The translations under genes were made by a program, and so were the position numbers. From assembly GCA_017640665.1 (NCBI GenBank), contig JAEPQE010000003.1, forward strand, positions 124,001 through 188,000: DNA of 64,000 nt. Direction: 5' to 3'. This DNA is from Balneolaceae bacterium. Lineage in GTDB: Bacteria; Bacteroidota; Rhodothermia; Balneolales; Balneolaceae. The notes beneath the pieces are model-generated. The model worked only from the letters and a program-made list of their open reading frames with translations. It was not told the origin of the DNA and did no database searches. Positions 42,042-48,539 of the stretch are shown here, piece by piece (the stretch's first letter is position 1; the number at the start of each line of letters is the position of its first letter).

Positions 42042-42734
42042 TTAGAACTCTAGATATTCCACATTTCTCACTTCAAATAAATCCTCAATAGTCCAGTCGG
42101 TATTAATCACAATTCCCCCGATAAGATATAATTTAATATCATCTAGTTCTGGCTTAATGATGTCTAAAATGCGATTCATTTTTGTATGTATGGCTTCATA
42201 AGCAGAATCCGTTGCTTCTTTTAAAGGAAATTGACTCTCTAGAATATTGCTTCTGTTTTTATGTAGATGTTCAATCACCCGTGCCTGTTGATAATCAAGC
42301 GGGTTATCCAAAGGCATGTGTTCATCTTTTTTAATAGATTCGAGTGCCGCAACTAAGGAACCACAACAAGTTGAAGAAGCAAACTGATTCTGACGATTAA
42401 CCTGCCCAATCTTTCCGTCTTCAGAAATCCCGATGTGAGGTCCATATAAAACCAAAACAGCTCCATGAGAAGGAGCATGACTAAGAAACGCTTTCATGCC
42501 TGTAATCCCTGAGAATGGCAAACCGGAGATTCCGCCTAACATAAAAGGACCGGGACCTGCAAACAGATCATAAAAAGGGGAGAATAAATTATTTACTTCA
42601 TCACTACAAAATGAAGTTGCCCAGATTGTTGATTTTAAATCTAGTTTTTTTTGAACGAGATCAGTAATTATTTTGGTTTCCAGATCAGTAATTCGAATTG
42701 CCTCTGGATAATGTTTTGGTATAGTTTTGTACAT
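42042..42734 (-). CDS. LCIB/LCIC-type carbonic anhydrase-like protein
   Basis: 230 residues. The pattern ATSFCSDEVN (Cys43, Asp45), LGGISGLPFSGITGMKAF, LSHAPSHGAVLVLYGPHIG (His86, His90, His100), VNRQNQ and SSTCCGS (Cys123, Cys124) matches the low-CO2-inducible LCIB family, whose active members are beta-like (theta) carbonic anhydrases with a Cys-His-Cys zinc site. The ligand set is present. It is divergent from sbtA-sbtB, with 113 bases between, supporting a role in CO2/bicarbonate balance. Activity must be tested since some LCIB proteins lack it. Confidence 0.8.
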   Translation of the reverse strand: MYKTIPKHYPEAIRITDLETKIITDLVQKKLDLKSTIWATSFCSDEVNNLFSPFYDLFAGPGPFMLGGISGLPFSGITGMKAFLSHAPSHGAVLVLYGPHIGISEDGKIGQVNRQNQFASSTCCGSLVAALESIKKDEHMPLDNPLDYQQARVIEHLHKNRSNILESQFPLKEATDSAYEAIHTKMNRILDIIKPELDDIKLYLIGGIVINTDWTIEDLFEVRNVEYLEF

Positions 42735-42847
42735 AGTCTATAAAAAGGTATAAAAAGATCGAACGGTAAAAGATACTTAGCTGATTTGTTTTATCTTGAA
42801 AATACAAAACTCAGGGACTTCTCAGACTCTAAATTAAACTTTAATCA

Positions 42848-43804
42848 ATGGAATCATTACTCTCTAATTTTGCATCACCGGTTGTATTAGCTTTTGTATT
42901 GGGGATTTTAGCAAAAGTACTTAAAAGTGACCTCGAAATTCCAAAACCTCTTTACCAAGGGTTATCCATTTACCTATTATTAGCAATTGGGTTAAAAGGT
43001 GGAGTTGAGTTAAGTAAAACACCAATGAGTGAATTTGTGCTACCCGCAGGAGCAACTCTCCTGTTAGGCTGTGTAACTCCTCTTATCGCTTTTGCAGTAC
43101 TTAAGTATATCGGAAAGATGGATATAGTTAATTCCTCCGCAATAGCTGCCCATTATGGATCGGTTTCAGCAGTAACATTTATTGCTTCAATTAGCTATCT
43201 GGAAACGCTTGGGGTTGATTCAGAAGGGTTCATGCCTACTTTGGTTGCTTTGCTCGAGGTGCCCGGTATTATAGTGGCGCTTATGATTCCACAACTAATG
43301 AGCAATGGCGGTGGGTCTTTCAAGAAAGCTTTACACGAAGTGGTGACAGGAAGCAGTATTATTTTATTATTGGGTGGTTTGATTATCGGGTACATAGCCG
43401 GGCCCGTAAAATTTGAAGCAGTATCACCTTTTTTTGTTAGCGGGTTTAAAGGTGCACTTGTACTATTCTTGTTAGAACTCGGAATGGTAACGGCCCGAAG
43501 ACTTCAGGATTTTAAAAAAGTAGGCTTCTTTTTATTTGGTTTCGCCATTATCATTCCAATTTTTCATGGATTTATAGCCGTTTGGTTAGGATTACTATCC
43601 GGTCTAAGTATTGCCGGAGCAACAGTTTTAGCGGCAATGGTTTCAAGCGGTTCTTACATTGCAGCTCCCGCAGCGGTAAGAATTGCGTTGCCTAAAGCAA
43701 GTCCTTCGCTATATCTTACTGCTTCACTAGGAATCACATTTCCTTTTAACATTACACTTGGAATTCCACTTTATTACATAATTGCACAATGGATGGGAGG
43801 TTGA
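42848..43804 (+). CDS. sbtA: SbtA-family sodium-dependent bicarbonate transporter
   Basis: 318 residues with about ten membrane helices in two inverted halves. Family signs: IPKPLYQGLSIYLLLAIGLK, GGVELSKTP, AAHYGSVSAVTFIA (the bicarbonate-binding first half) and GATVLAAMVSSGSYIAAPAA with VRIALPKASPSLYLTASLG (second half). Imports HCO3- with Na+ across the inner membrane. The downstream sbtB gene starts one base after its stop, the standard SbtAB arrangement, and an LCIB carbonic anhydrase gene is divergent upstream. Confidence 0.9.
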   Translation: MESLLSNFASPVVLAFVLGILAKVLKSDLEIPKPLYQGLSIYLLLAIGLKGGVELSKTPMSEFVLPAGATLLLGCVTPLIAFAVLKYIGKMDIVNSSAIAAHYGSVSAVTFIASISYLETLGVDSEGFMPTLVALLEVPGIIVALMIPQLMSNGGGSFKKALHEVVTGSSIILLLGGLIIGYIAGPVKFEAVSPFFVSGFKGALVLFLLELGMVTARRLQDFKKVGFFLFGFAIIIPIFHGFIAVWLGLLSGLSIAGATVLAAMVSSGSYIAAPAAVRIALPKASPSLYLTASLGITFPFNITLGIPLYYIIAQWMGG

Positions 43805-43805
43805 T

Positions 43806-44108
43806 ATGAAATTGACAGAATTATACCTGGTTACCATTATTACTGAAAGATATTTCAGAGATGAAATTCTTGAAAAACTAAAAGAATTCGGAGCAACAGG
43901 ATTTACCCTTACCGATACAACCGGGGAAGGTTCAAGGGGGATGCGAGCCAGTGATTTTGAAGGAAAGAATGTTAAAATAGAAGTAGTAGTTAGTAAAGAC
44001 GTAGGCAATAACATTATTGACTACATAGCTGATGTATACTTCGAGAACTATTCTGTAATTGCCTACGCCTATCCTGTAAGTGTGGTGCGAGGAGATAAAT
44101 ATGTTTAG
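43806..44108 (+). CDS. sbtB: SbtB-like PII regulator
   Basis: 100 residues from the ATG at 43806 (a longer form starting at 43782 would overlap sbtA). Ferredoxin-like PII fold: LVTIITERYFRDEILEKLKE, FGATGFTLTDTTGEGSRGM (T-loop region) and SVIAYAYPVSVVRGDKYV. In cyanobacteria SbtB binds cAMP/AMP/ADP and blocks SbtA; the same is inferred here from the TGA-T-ATG junction with sbtA. The C-terminal CGPEGC redox loop of cyanobacterial SbtB is absent. Confidence 0.85.
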   Translation: MKLTELYLVTIITERYFRDEILEKLKEFGATGFTLTDTTGEGSRGMRASDFEGKNVKIEVVVSKDVGNNIIDYIADVYFENYSVIAYAYPVSVVRGDKYV

Positions 44109-44159: not shown

Positions 44160-44205
44160 GGTCTCAAAATGCTGATTTGATACGTCTCATATTATACTGA
44201 GCCGA
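44160..44205 (+). promoter_or_regulatory. Candidate operator, copy 1 (of 46 bp)
   Basis: GGTCTCAAAA, 3 variable bases, TGATTTGA-ACGTCTCA, then CTGAG-CGA. It matches the element at 46038-46083 at 36 of 46 positions without gaps and ends 59 bases before the ATG of the GIN-like gene. Half-sites GTCTCA and TGAG(A)C suggest a dimeric regulator, most simply the AraC-type protein encoded at 44873. Confidence 0.65.
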
Positions 44206-44264
44206 TTTCACATGTTTGAAATCTGATCTTTGTGGCGTAATCATAATCAAACACAAGGTTCGCC

Positions 44265-44822
44265 ATGAGAAATTTAATAATCACCACTATCACTGTTCTC
44301 GCTTTAACTCTCACAACGAGTATACAAGCACAAGAGACAGATGTTCTTATGAATTATCAAATCTCCCCATTTACAGAGTTACAGTCTGAGCTAAATACCG
44401 AAATAATTATTATAAAGAGTACCAGAAATAATATTCTGGTGCAGGGTAGCGAGGAGTCTCAGAGAGAAATAGAGATAATTGAAGAAGATGGAAGACTAGC
44501 CGTTTTTTTAAAGGATGGTAGCAATGAGCAGCCAAAGCGGATAGTAATCGAAACAACAGGGTTTAATTCACTGGTAAGTGGAGGAACAGGAAACTATTTC
44601 GTTCTTGGTTTAGAACAAGAGAGTTTCAACCTTTTAAATCCATCTGCGAATGTATTGCTATCTGGCACATTAGAAAGCATCTATCTGTCCTCAGAAAACG
44701 GGCATTCGGATTTGAGCAGCATTTATACAGAAAAAGAATGGATTTCAATCTCTGAGTCAGCCAGCTACATCGAAAGTAAATATTCAGGAAAAAACTTGTT
44801 CGCCAGAAATCTGAATAAGTAA
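44265..44822 (+). CDS. Secreted GIN/DUF2807-like protein
   Basis: 185 residues with a signal peptide (ending TSIQAQ). The mature part has the short beta-strand repeats of head-GIN (DUF2807) domains: PFTELQSELNTEIIIIKSTR, IVIETTGFNSLVSGGTGNYF, LNPSANVLLSGTLESIYLSS. Related to the protein at 47991 (same IILIKSTRN segment) and to the C-terminal part of the DoxX fusion at 46139. Likely periplasmic or surface; role unknown. Preceded by a candidate operator and followed by the AraC gene. Confidence 0.65.
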   Translation: MRNLIITTITVLALTLTTSIQAQETDVLMNYQISPFTELQSELNTEIIIIKSTRNNILVQGSEESQREIEIIEEDGRLAVFLKDGSNEQPKRIVIETTGFNSLVSGGTGNYFVLGLEQESFNLLNPSANVLLSGTLESIYLSSENGHSDLSSIYTEKEWISISESASYIESKYSGKNLFARNLNK

Positions 44823-44872
44823 GAATCGAAATTTTGAATTTGATTTTTCTTAAATAGATACGATCATTCGCT

Positions 44873-46036
44873 ATGGCTTTTCTGCAGACGTTCCCAAATT
44901 TCAATATTTACAGTATGCCCTTGATTATTTTGGTTGGTCAGGGGTATTTATTTGCGCTGATTTTATTTTTCAGATACTTCAAAAAGAAAAAAGCTTCTGA
45001 CTTAATTCTTGGAGTTTTCCTGGTAATAACCGGGTTACGATGTACCGCTTATATGATAGGGTTTATGGGTTGGTACGATGTTAATCCAAATACAAAAATC
45101 AATTACTTTCTGGTTGACTATTCGTTGATTCTGGGGCCACTGGTTTATTTTTATGTGAAAAGCATTACCCATCCGAATTTTCGATTTAAAAAGAAGGATA
45201 CATGGCATGCTGTACCTTGGTTAATCTATGTATCATTACAGATATTTATTTACCTGTACGATGTTCAACAATCAGGTTTTTATGATGTACAGGACGGGGT
45301 TTTGTACGTAAAAATAAACTACAGTATCGGGATTTATATGGTGATTCTGGGGATCATCTCGCGATCAATTTATTTCTATCATGCAGCGAAAACCTTTTAC
45401 AAATTCAGAGGAAAGATCCGTCAATTTTTTTCAAATACGTATAAAGTTGAACTCAATTGGCTTCGCTACTTCCTGATCGTGTATTTGGGATTATTCATCC
45501 TCCGGATTGGTTTTATTTTCACCAATCAGTTTTTTTATCAGATGACCTGGACCCAAAATTGGTGGTGGTACCTTATTGCTTCTATGGTATTGGTTTATCT
45601 TGGAATGATGGGGATTTTTGCGGACCTGGGGAAGCTTTCGGAATTGGAGTTTGTAGAGCCCAAAGAAACCAAACAGGATGAAGAGATCAAAGAATTGGCT
45701 CCTTTCAAAGAAAAAGTGGAAGAGTTTATGGAAGATGAAAAAGCATTTCTCAATCCGGATCTAACACTAGCAGAACTTTCGAAAATGGTTGAACTTCCAA
45801 CCAACCAGCTTTCCAAAGTAATAAATACTGGATTTGGTAAAAACTTCAACGATTTCATAAACGCTTACCGTGTTGAAGAAGTCAAGAATGCATTATCAGA
45901 TCCTGCATACTCGCATTTTTCTGTTCTGGGTATCGCCTTCGAATGTGGTTTTAATAGTAAAGCCACCTTTAACCGAGTTTTCAAGCGTGTAACAGGGCAT
46001 TCGCCTACCGAATATATCAGTCTCGAAAAAAGATAG
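44873..46036 (+). CDS. Membrane-anchored AraC-family transcriptional regulator
   Basis: 387 residues. Seven hydrophobic helices in residues 15-245 (IILVGQGYLFALILFF to YLGMMGIFADLG), then a cytoplasmic linker and a C-terminal AraC/XylS DNA-binding domain (about 285-385): DLTLAELSKMVELPTNQLSK, FNDFINAYRVEEVKNAL, VLGIAFECGFNSKATFNRVF and HSPTEYI. This 7TM-AraC layout is common in Bacteroidota-like genomes and senses membrane or envelope signals. It lies between two genes that share a 46-bp upstream element, so it is the best candidate for binding it. Confidence 0.87.
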   Translation: MAFLQTFPNFNIYSMPLIILVGQGYLFALILFFRYFKKKKASDLILGVFLVITGLRCTAYMIGFMGWYDVNPNTKINYFLVDYSLILGPLVYFYVKSITHPNFRFKKKDTWHAVPWLIYVSLQIFIYLYDVQQSGFYDVQDGVLYVKINYSIGIYMVILGIISRSIYFYHAAKTFYKFRGKIRQFFSNTYKVELNWLRYFLIVYLGLFILRIGFIFTNQFFYQMTWTQNWWWYLIASMVLVYLGMMGIFADLGKLSELEFVEPKETKQDEEIKELAPFKEKVEEFMEDEKAFLNPDLTLAELSKMVELPTNQLSKVINTGFGKNFNDFINAYRVEEVKNALSDPAYSHFSVLGIAFECGFNSKATFNRVFKRVTGHSPTEYISLEKR

Positions 46037-46037
46037 A

Positions 46038-46083
46038 GGTCTCAAAAGTATGATTTGAGACGTCTCAATATCTGCTGAGACGA
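46038..46083 (+). promoter_or_regulatory. Candidate operator, copy 2 (of 46 bp)
   Basis: GTCTCA (46039), TGAGACGTCTCA (46056-46067, a perfect palindrome) and TGAGAC (46076): four half-sites in inverted pairs. It ends 55 bases before the ATG of the DoxX fusion gene, almost the same distance as copy 1 to its gene. It begins 1 base after the AraC stop. Confidence 0.65.
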
Positions 46084-46138
46084 ATACTCAACCTGGTGTT
46101 TCGATACTTGTGTAAACCTTAACACAAAGTATCTCACC

Positions 46139-47584
46139 ATGGAACATACAAACACAGCAACTATTTCAACTAAGATCTATTCTTTATTGCTCAAAGTTAC
46201 TCAACCAAAAGAAATTGAAGGCTTTTTCTCAAATTTTATATTAGCGGTTCCCAGAATTCTAGCTGGATTTTTTTTAGCCACAATGTTCGGTGGAGATAAA
46301 TTCGGAGTTCCCTGGTCTGTAGCAGATACCGGACTTAGACTTTTTGAAGTAGCGGCTTGGTTCCCGGAAGATGTAGCCACTTTTGGATTTCCCTTTTCTG
46401 CAGCTCCTGTTTTCTTTGCATGGATGGGAGCTGCAAGTGAAGCTATTGGCGGAATATTTCTACTTCTAGGGCTTCAAACCCGTATCTCTGGGTTTCTTAT
46501 TTCCAGCACTATGATAGTTGCCATTTTTTTGCAACAGTGGGGGGGACCATTGTGGAATATGCTCCCTGCAATGGGATTTCTTTGGATAGGATTATACGCG
46601 ACTATCTTCGGGTCTGGGAAATTTGGAATAGACTATGTAATAGCAAAAAAAATAAAGTCAAATAAGTGGAATGAGTCAGTTTTAAAAACAGCCTCAACAG
46701 CTGGGTTGATTCTTTTTATAACTCTGGCAGTATCTCAAGAGGGTAAAGCACAAGTAAAAGGAAATAGAAACATCATTTCAACGAATGTTCAAGTAGAGCC
46801 GTTTACAAAGATCAAAAATGGATTATCAAGTGACTTATATATCACAGTAGGGGCTAGAACAGAAGTGAAAGTAACGGCAGATGAAAACCTTATGGATCTT
46901 ATTGATGTGGAAGTGATTGATGGGGAACTGGATATCAATCAAAAAGAATGGATTTCTTCAAGCAAACGAATACGAATTGATATTACTACTCCTGAGCTAA
47001 CTAAGTTCAACAATTCAGCACACGGCAAATACACCATTTCAGGAGTTGATGCAGATTATTTTAATTTGATGTCACCGGTTGGAGATGTGATTCTTTCAGG
47101 GAATGTAAAAGGGATAAGTATAGGTACAGAAACGGGCAACGTTGACGCTTCAGCATTAACCGTTTCAGAAGCTCGTGTGAAAATATGGAGTTTTGGTACC
47201 GTTAAAATTCATGCACTGGATCGTTTAGAAGCCGAAGTATCTGACAATGGAAAAGTTGTGTATATAGAAGAACCTGAAGTATTGAAGATCAAGTCTAAAG
47301 AAGGAGGGAAGGTTATTTCTTTAGAAGAGAATAATGCCCCCGCAAAAGAAATTGTATATGTAAGTGTAAAGCTGAAGAACAACTCAAGTGAACGAGTAAA
47401 TGTGGTAATCAAAGGACCAGAAGGGGCACGTTTTGGATATGGAGCACCATTTGGTAGATTTCAAACAAGAAAAGAACGGTTTCCTGTGGGAACTCAAATC
47501 TATCTCGAACGTCAACTTTGGAAGAATCAACTTCTGTTAACTATAAAAGAAGAACACGCAGGTAAAACAGTTGAGCTATTCTAG
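46139..47584 (+). CDS. DoxX-like membrane domain fused to a GIN/DUF2807 domain
   Basis: 481 residues. Residues 25-165 are a DoxX-like four-helix membrane domain (ILAVPRILAGFFLATMFGGD, ASEAIGGIFLLLGLQTRISG, TMIVAIFLQQWGGPLWNMLP). A further hydrophobic helix (185-200) leads to GKAQ and then a DUF2807 beta-solenoid-like domain (about 205-400: VEPFTKIKNGLSSDLYITVG, ITTPELTKFNNSAHGKYTIS, SFGTVKIHALDRLEAEVSDN). The end is basic. The domains usually occur separately. The AQ at 204-205 looks like a signal-peptidase site, so the outer domain might be released or the fusion may reflect two genes joined. Confidence 0.75.
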   Translation: MEHTNTATISTKIYSLLLKVTQPKEIEGFFSNFILAVPRILAGFFLATMFGGDKFGVPWSVADTGLRLFEVAAWFPEDVATFGFPFSAAPVFFAWMGAASEAIGGIFLLLGLQTRISGFLISSTMIVAIFLQQWGGPLWNMLPAMGFLWIGLYATIFGSGKFGIDYVIAKKIKSNKWNESVLKTASTAGLILFITLAVSQEGKAQVKGNRNIISTNVQVEPFTKIKNGLSSDLYITVGARTEVKVTADENLMDLIDVEVIDGELDINQKEWISSSKRIRIDITTPELTKFNNSAHGKYTISGVDADYFNLMSPVGDVILSGNVKGISIGTETGNVDASALTVSEARVKIWSFGTVKIHALDRLEAEVSDNGKVVYIEEPEVLKIKSKEGGKVISLEENNAPAKEIVYVSVKLKNNSSERVNVVIKGPEGARFGYGAPFGRFQTRKERFPVGTQIYLERQLWKNQLLLTIKEEHAGKTVELF

Positions 47585-47990: not shown

Positions 47991-48539
47991 ATGAAAATAA
48001 TATATAGAGCCATTTGCATGGTGCTTATAGCACTTGGTACATTCACATCACTAAACGCTCAATCAGCAAATCATATCAGAAGCGTTGAGTTGAAACCTTT
48101 TAATCATGTTCAACTTCAGAATAATTCAGAAATAATTCTGATTAAAAGTACCAGAAACTACATGTTTATACAGGGAGATTCTGCTGAAATTAATGATATA
48201 GCTTTTGTGGAGGAAGATGGAATCCTAGGAATTGATATACTTGATTCTGCTTTTAACTCAAACAGAATTGTAATTGAGTTTACTGAGTTGAATTATGCAA
48301 CTACTGGAGGGAATGGCGAATATTATATTTTAAATATAGACGAAGATTTTCTTTCAATACTAAATCCACAGGCCACACTTACTATTTCCGGGAGTGCTAA
48401 CAATTTCAGACTTACTTCAGATAATGGATACAATGATCTAAGTTCTCTGGAGACAAAGAAAGACATCATTTTTGTTGAAGATGTCGCGAATTTGGTAAGT
48501 CCGACTAAAAAAGGTTGGTTCTTTGCCCGAAGGGATTAA
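47991..48539 (+). CDS. Secreted GIN/DUF2807-like protein, paralogue of 44265
   Basis: 182 residues, signal peptide ending SLNAQ. SVELKPFNHVQLQNNSEIIL, IKSTRNYMFIQGD, VIEFTELNYATTGGNGEYYI and LNPQATLTISGSANNFRLTS follow the 44265 protein strand by strand. The operator copies found for the other two genes are missing here. Function unknown; the three related genes suggest an envelope stress or surface-modification response. Confidence 0.62.
   Translation: MKIIYRAICMVLIALGTFTSLNAQSANHIRSVELKPFNHVQLQNNSEIILIKSTRNYMFIQGDSAEINDIAFVEEDGILGIDILDSAFNSNRIVIEFTELNYATTGGNGEYYILNIDEDFLSILNPQATLTISGSANNFRLTSDNGYNDLSSLETKKDIIFVEDVANLVSPTKKGWFFARRD

Follow-up and report, generated by a model that had tools for sequence, protein, structure and literature searches.

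Predicted operators of a membrane-integral AraC-family regulator precede GIN and DoxX genes in Balneolaceae and are conserved with it in Bacteroidota

The window analysed here is a stretch of 64,000 nucleotides from the genome of a Balneolaceae bacterium, in which the gene of an AraC-family regulator with seven predicted transmembrane helices (7-TM) lies between two GIN-domain (DUF2807) genes, each preceded by a copy of a 46-bp repeat (Table 1). The first GIN gene encodes a small, secreted protein and likely heads a GIN-araC operon, 50 bp before araC. The initial annotation had described two GIN-domain genes around the regulator; the GIN domains are real, since all three GIN genes of the locus score above the PF10988 cut-off and the GIN part of the fusion matches solved GIN proteins (Foldseek, 3pet, E 4.5e-12), but the second gene proved to be a fusion of DoxX, GIN and a C-terminal domain, and the locus contains a third GIN gene, paralogous to the first. 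The region upstream of this third gene contains no operator-like sequence, and the gene is predicted to lie outside the regulon. A bicarbonate-uptake cluster (42042-44108), comprising an LCIB-type carbonic anhydrase, an SbtA-type bicarbonate transporter and an adjoining PII-like (SbtB-like) gene, terminates immediately before operator 1.

Table 1 Features of the locus, in window coordinates.
Feature	Position	Strand	Remarks
Operator 1 (predicted)	44160..44205	+	GTCTCA at 44161; TGATACGTCTCA at 44178-44189; proximal half-site TGAGCCG at 44198-44204
Predicted -7 box GATCTTTG	44225..44232	+	20 bp past TGAGCCG; predicted start ~44237
GIN-domain protein (DUF2807), small, secreted, 185 aa	44265..44822	+	Pfam
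7-TM AraC-family regulator, 387 aa	44873..46036	+	Pfam HTH_18; no named N-terminal domain
Operator 2 (predicted)	46038..46083	+	GTCTCA at 46039; TGAGACGTCTCA at 46056-46067; proximal half-site TGAGACG at 46076-46082
Predicted -7 box GATACTTG	46103..46110	+	20 bp past TGAGACG; predicted start ~46115
DoxX + GIN (DUF2807) + C-terminal domain fusion, 481 aa	46139..47584	+	Pfam; putative target of operator 2
C-terminal beta domain, fusion residues 396-477	47324..47569	+	No Pfam family
Third GIN gene (DUF2807), paralogue of the first	47991..48539	+	Pfam

The reported match between the two repeats was reproduced on recomputation, with 36 of 46 positions identical without gaps and distances of 59 and 55 bases to the ATG codons at 44265 and 46139, respectively. 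Sixty shuffles of the two intergenic regions gave a top identity of 25 and a mean of 22.2, and the similarity between the operators stretches to 58 nt at 76%. The GTCTCA and TGAGAC half-sites from which the operators had been said to be built are present: GTCTCA-N5-13-TGAGAC occurs twice in the window, both times inside operator 2, against 0.01 expected, and TGAGACGTCTCA has its single occurrence in the window at 46056. The palindromic reading yields, however, to another, in which the operator units are best described as TGAGnCG direct repeats with a period of 20-22 bp.

Within the 3.8 Mb genome, TGAGACGTCTCA-N8-TGAGAC with up to three mismatches matched only operators 1 and 2, and its reversed control matched once. 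The initial annotation had proposed a genome scan for GGTCTCAAAA-N3-TGATTTGA and held that wide occurrence beyond the regulon would speak against it; exact matches were restricted to the two operators, so that the genome-wide search did not refute the proposal, and at 2-3 mismatches the matches were not clearly above control. No further regulon member was found in this genome, matches to TGAGnCG-N20-box elsewhere being at the level of the control. A third GTCTCA...TGAGAC palindrome (L153, G000:C3:231697-231720) was rejected as an operator on account of its flanking A- and T-runs; it resembles a terminator that has nothing to do with the operators.

Relatives of the 7-TM AraC protein share 81 and 65% identity with it in Balneolaceae and 41-48% in Flavobacteriaceae, Saprospiraceae and Chitinophagales, and nearly all of them have a TTTGAGACGTCTCAAATCGTATTTGAGAC variant 3' of the gene, followed by DoxX and often by GIN genes. 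The operator accompanies AraC orthologues in Flavobacteriaceae, Saprospiraceae, Spirosoma-type Cytophagales and Balneolaceae, where it nearly always precedes a DoxX, GIN, TonB-barrel or S41-peptidase gene; mononucleotide-shuffled controls contained 0 sites in 0.97 Mb. In Aquimarina an alpha-amylase gene is located between AraC and DoxX, and the operator remains before DoxX. With the more distant AraC homologues (~33% identity) of Spirosoma, Larkinella and other Saprospiraceae, the operator heads differently ordered operons, which end in AraC and contain either DoxX and GIN genes or a gene for a TonB-type barrel; this suggests autoregulation at those loci. A tree of 50 AraC proteins has the operator clustered in one group of 42 rows; L006 and L010, scored as operator-less in that analysis, actually carry it. 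Two loci of Saprospiraceae fit less neatly, L024 lacking a site and L043 having a weak one. The predicted operator-regulator circuit is conserved over Bacteroidota and Balneolota. At many operator loci a small conserved lipoprotein with weak CBM48 similarity, absent from the window, adjoins DoxX (L014:8309-8707, L050:5465-5833). A link to polysaccharide use through this lipoprotein and the Aquimarina amylase was considered and rejected, as it is inconsistent from locus to locus.

Promoters could be anchored at 47 loci, and they share a constant order of TGAGnCG, 20 bp and YAnnTTTG. At the 20-bp spacing 43 of the 47 reach a score of at least 10/12, and at nearly all other spacings 0-13 loci do so; the exception is 8 bp, reached by 22 loci, which probably reflects the operator matching its own TTTG. 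The boxes in Balneola are imperfect, as in GATACTTG. The shared box fits the sigma-A -7 box of Flavobacterium, TAnnTTTG at -12 to -5 (PMC9723704), so that the last half-site would span -39 to -33. In the aligned loci upstream TGAGnCG copies lie 20-22 bp apart, and the motifs of AraC-type HTCS in Bacteroides are direct repeats with a mean distance of 21 bp (PMC3878776).

The position of the last half-site makes activation through polymerase contact the natural reading, and we consider it highly probable that both sites serve the 7-TM AraC protein, whose gene lies between them, as activator operators. In the mechanism that we propose, the seven-helix domain, with its N-terminus outside and the DNA-binding domain in the cytoplasm, would sense a cue from the periplasm or the membrane. 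AraC domains, at least two of them, would bind the tandem TGAGnCG repeats, whose spacing of 20-22 bp, corresponding to two helix turns, would put them on one face of the DNA; at the last copy an activator of the AraC type would take the place of the -33 element, and the bound protein would bring sigma-A polymerase to a promoter whose -7 box is of the TAnnTTTG type. The regulator would target the DoxX-GIN fusion gene and also, in a positive feedback, the GIN-araC operon. The protein could conversely repress both promoters until released by a signal, as the binding-site and co-occurrence evidence is silent on the sign of regulation and the proximal half-site, overlapping the -33 region, could block polymerase. 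We regard repression as rather unlikely, given that the -7 box stands at a rigid distance of 20 bp in different phyla, as polymerase contact needs, and that AraC-family proteins whose sites overlap -35 are usually activators.

The association between operator and regulator was examined in 299 Flavobacteriaceae genomes from 203 genera, a strict operator being defined as AGACGTCTCAAATCGTATTTGAGAC with at most three mismatches. Twenty-two genomes contain a strict operator, one each (reversed control, 0), and all of them are among the 28 that encode an AraC orthologue (hypergeometric P 3e-28, a value that treats related genomes as independent); the 271 genomes without AraC contain 0 strict operators. 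The strict operator lies directly 3' of the AraC stop codon in 21 of the 22 cases, and at a contig end in the other. Of the six AraC genomes without a strict operator, five show a diverged one at the corresponding position; the sixth, G578, has one before a DoxX gene on a different contig, with a score of 22 against a top score of 20 in 200 shuffles. In the phylum-wide sample the operator was found in 2 of 392 genomes, both with AraC. The DoxX subfamily is present in 31 genomes, five of which lack AraC and are all operator-free; in G357 and G709, which have no DoxX, the operator is kept and precedes a secreted protein with the C-terminal domain of the fusion. Thus the operator tracks AraC and not DoxX. 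The co-occurrence is partly linkage, as operator and gene mostly lie side by side and are passed on as a unit, and the cases that break the linkage are few: the one gene in trans, the five DoxX genomes without AraC, and Aquimarina.

These genomes also bear on whether the sites are bound by some other regulator, encoded elsewhere, with araC merely adjoining them. Such a regulator might be sought among the 15 matches to the AraC protein in the own genome, which include many full-length 7-TM paralogues; the operator-free DoxX genomes without AraC, the trans operator in an AraC genome and the lack of strict operators in AraC-less genomes make this very unlikely. A reading of the repeats as terminators of transcription, or as RNA hairpins, at the ends of the PII-like and araC genes, which their partly palindromic sequence close behind a stop codon might suggest, is hardly credible and was rejected, because neither is followed by a T-run, the element accompanies the DoxX promoter where this lies apart from araC (Aquimarina and the trans case), its spacing to the -7 box is fixed, and the one other such palindrome of the genome, with its A- and T-runs, looks different. 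Co-occurrence, the tracking of AraC and not DoxX, the trans case, the rigid -7-box spacing and the sites at the ~33% homologues lead us to predict that the sites are operators of the membrane AraC protein, an assignment strongly supported by comparative genomics, and the regulatory reading of the operators is very probably right. From these data we infer AraC binding, activation over repression, a signal and an envelope function.

The AlphaFold2 model of the regulator (50 homologues, mean pLDDT 89.8) comprises seven membrane helices within residues 14-249, a linker helix (268-289) and a DNA-binding domain (299-386). The latter belongs to the AraC/XylS family by its double helix-turn-helix (PF12833, E 3e-16, above cut-off), matches 3oou, 6swi and 3mkl (probability 1.00, E 0.003-0.006), and is accompanied by the tandem direct-repeat sites on one DNA face typical of that family (TGAGnCG, period 20-22 bp). 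Positive residues are located in the inner loops, and the outer face displays a conserved aromatic and polar cluster (W67, Y68, K75, N77, Y78, D130, Q140, Q228, W230 and W231). Pfam gave no match for residues 1-260 at E 0.1, and no 7TM family, except a sub-threshold holin; in the whole 387-aa protein it found the helix-turn-helix only, with no kinase, receiver or periplasmic sensor of the HTCS kind.

In structural comparisons with VIA-align the 50 best matches of the sensor are all eukaryotic GPCRs, class A receptors reaching Z 15-16.3 (rmsd 3.3-4.8, 215-238 residues aligned), which we take as resemblance and not as demonstrated kinship, as a common arrangement alone can lift helical bundles to Z 13-14. 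Foldseek matches to GPCRs are weak (E 0.04 or worse, 4-10% identity), and the sensor lacks DRY at the end of TM3, which ends FYVKSITH, and NPxxY in TM7, which reads WWWYLIASMVLVYLGMMGIF. Rhodopsins also appear among the Foldseek matches; a rhodopsin reading was rejected because TM7 has no lysine and the best structural matches are GPCRs. It is a tentative idea, on balance doubtful, that a GPCR-like seven-helix receptor and an AraC domain form on one chain a complete receptor-to-promoter pathway, in which the receptor would read a periplasmic ligand through the conserved outer cluster and switch on a GIN/DoxX envelope module of ancient standing in Bacteroidota and Balneolota.

Among the collected loci, an iterative profile identified the C-terminal domain of the fusion (~98 residues), to which Pfam assigns no family, in 34 proteins, each of them encoded at a locus with the operator. 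This domain stands alone in Spirosoma, some Saprospiraceae, G357 and G709. At L043, beside the AraC homologue with the weak operator, a DoxX-S41 peptidase fusion is encoded (L043:1145-3442). Taken with the DoxX-GIN fusion of Balneolaceae, it suggests that the DoxX, GIN and S41 peptidase parts may work together. The initial annotation had proposed a regulon of the membrane AraC protein for an envelope response; comparative genomics strongly supports the former part, and the latter we infer solely from where the targets reside, namely the membrane, the periplasm or the outer membrane.

Bacteroidota commonly encode GIN/DUF2807 and DoxX proteins, of whose function little is known. A literature search that covered few subscription papers returned no account of a link between DUF2807, DoxX and AraC, nor a regulon description for 7-TM AraC proteins. 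The predicted regulon is new and widely conserved; its regulator family is known and the membrane sensor is unusual. With a precise site, predicted starts and a modelled sensor, this single-operator regulon could serve as a system to study the receptor signal and GIN function.

Several known systems share parts of this design. The AraC-type HTCS of Bacteroides (PMC3878776) likewise place an AraC domain in a membrane-spanning regulator acting on direct repeats of ~21 bp; here, in contrast, no kinase or receiver was found, the sensor is a seven-helix membrane bundle, and the targets are DoxX and GIN genes instead of polysaccharide utilization loci. With the one-component activators AraC, XylS and MelR the regulator has in common the HTH_18 domain with its near-invariant recognition segment and tandem sites of which the last reaches the -33/-35 region, whereas their sensor is soluble and cupin-type and the present one is membrane-integral. 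The GIN parts resemble the DUF2807/GIN putative adhesins (3pet, 3lyc, 3ljy) in fold, by model and sequence, and differ in being fused to DoxX and an unnamed C-terminal domain behind an AraC operator. Finally, 7TMR-DISM proteins such as RgsP (PMC6107284) also combine a seven-helix sensory module with a cytoplasmic output domain, but in the regulator described here, which matches no Pfam 7TM family, the output is DNA-binding and carried on the same chain.
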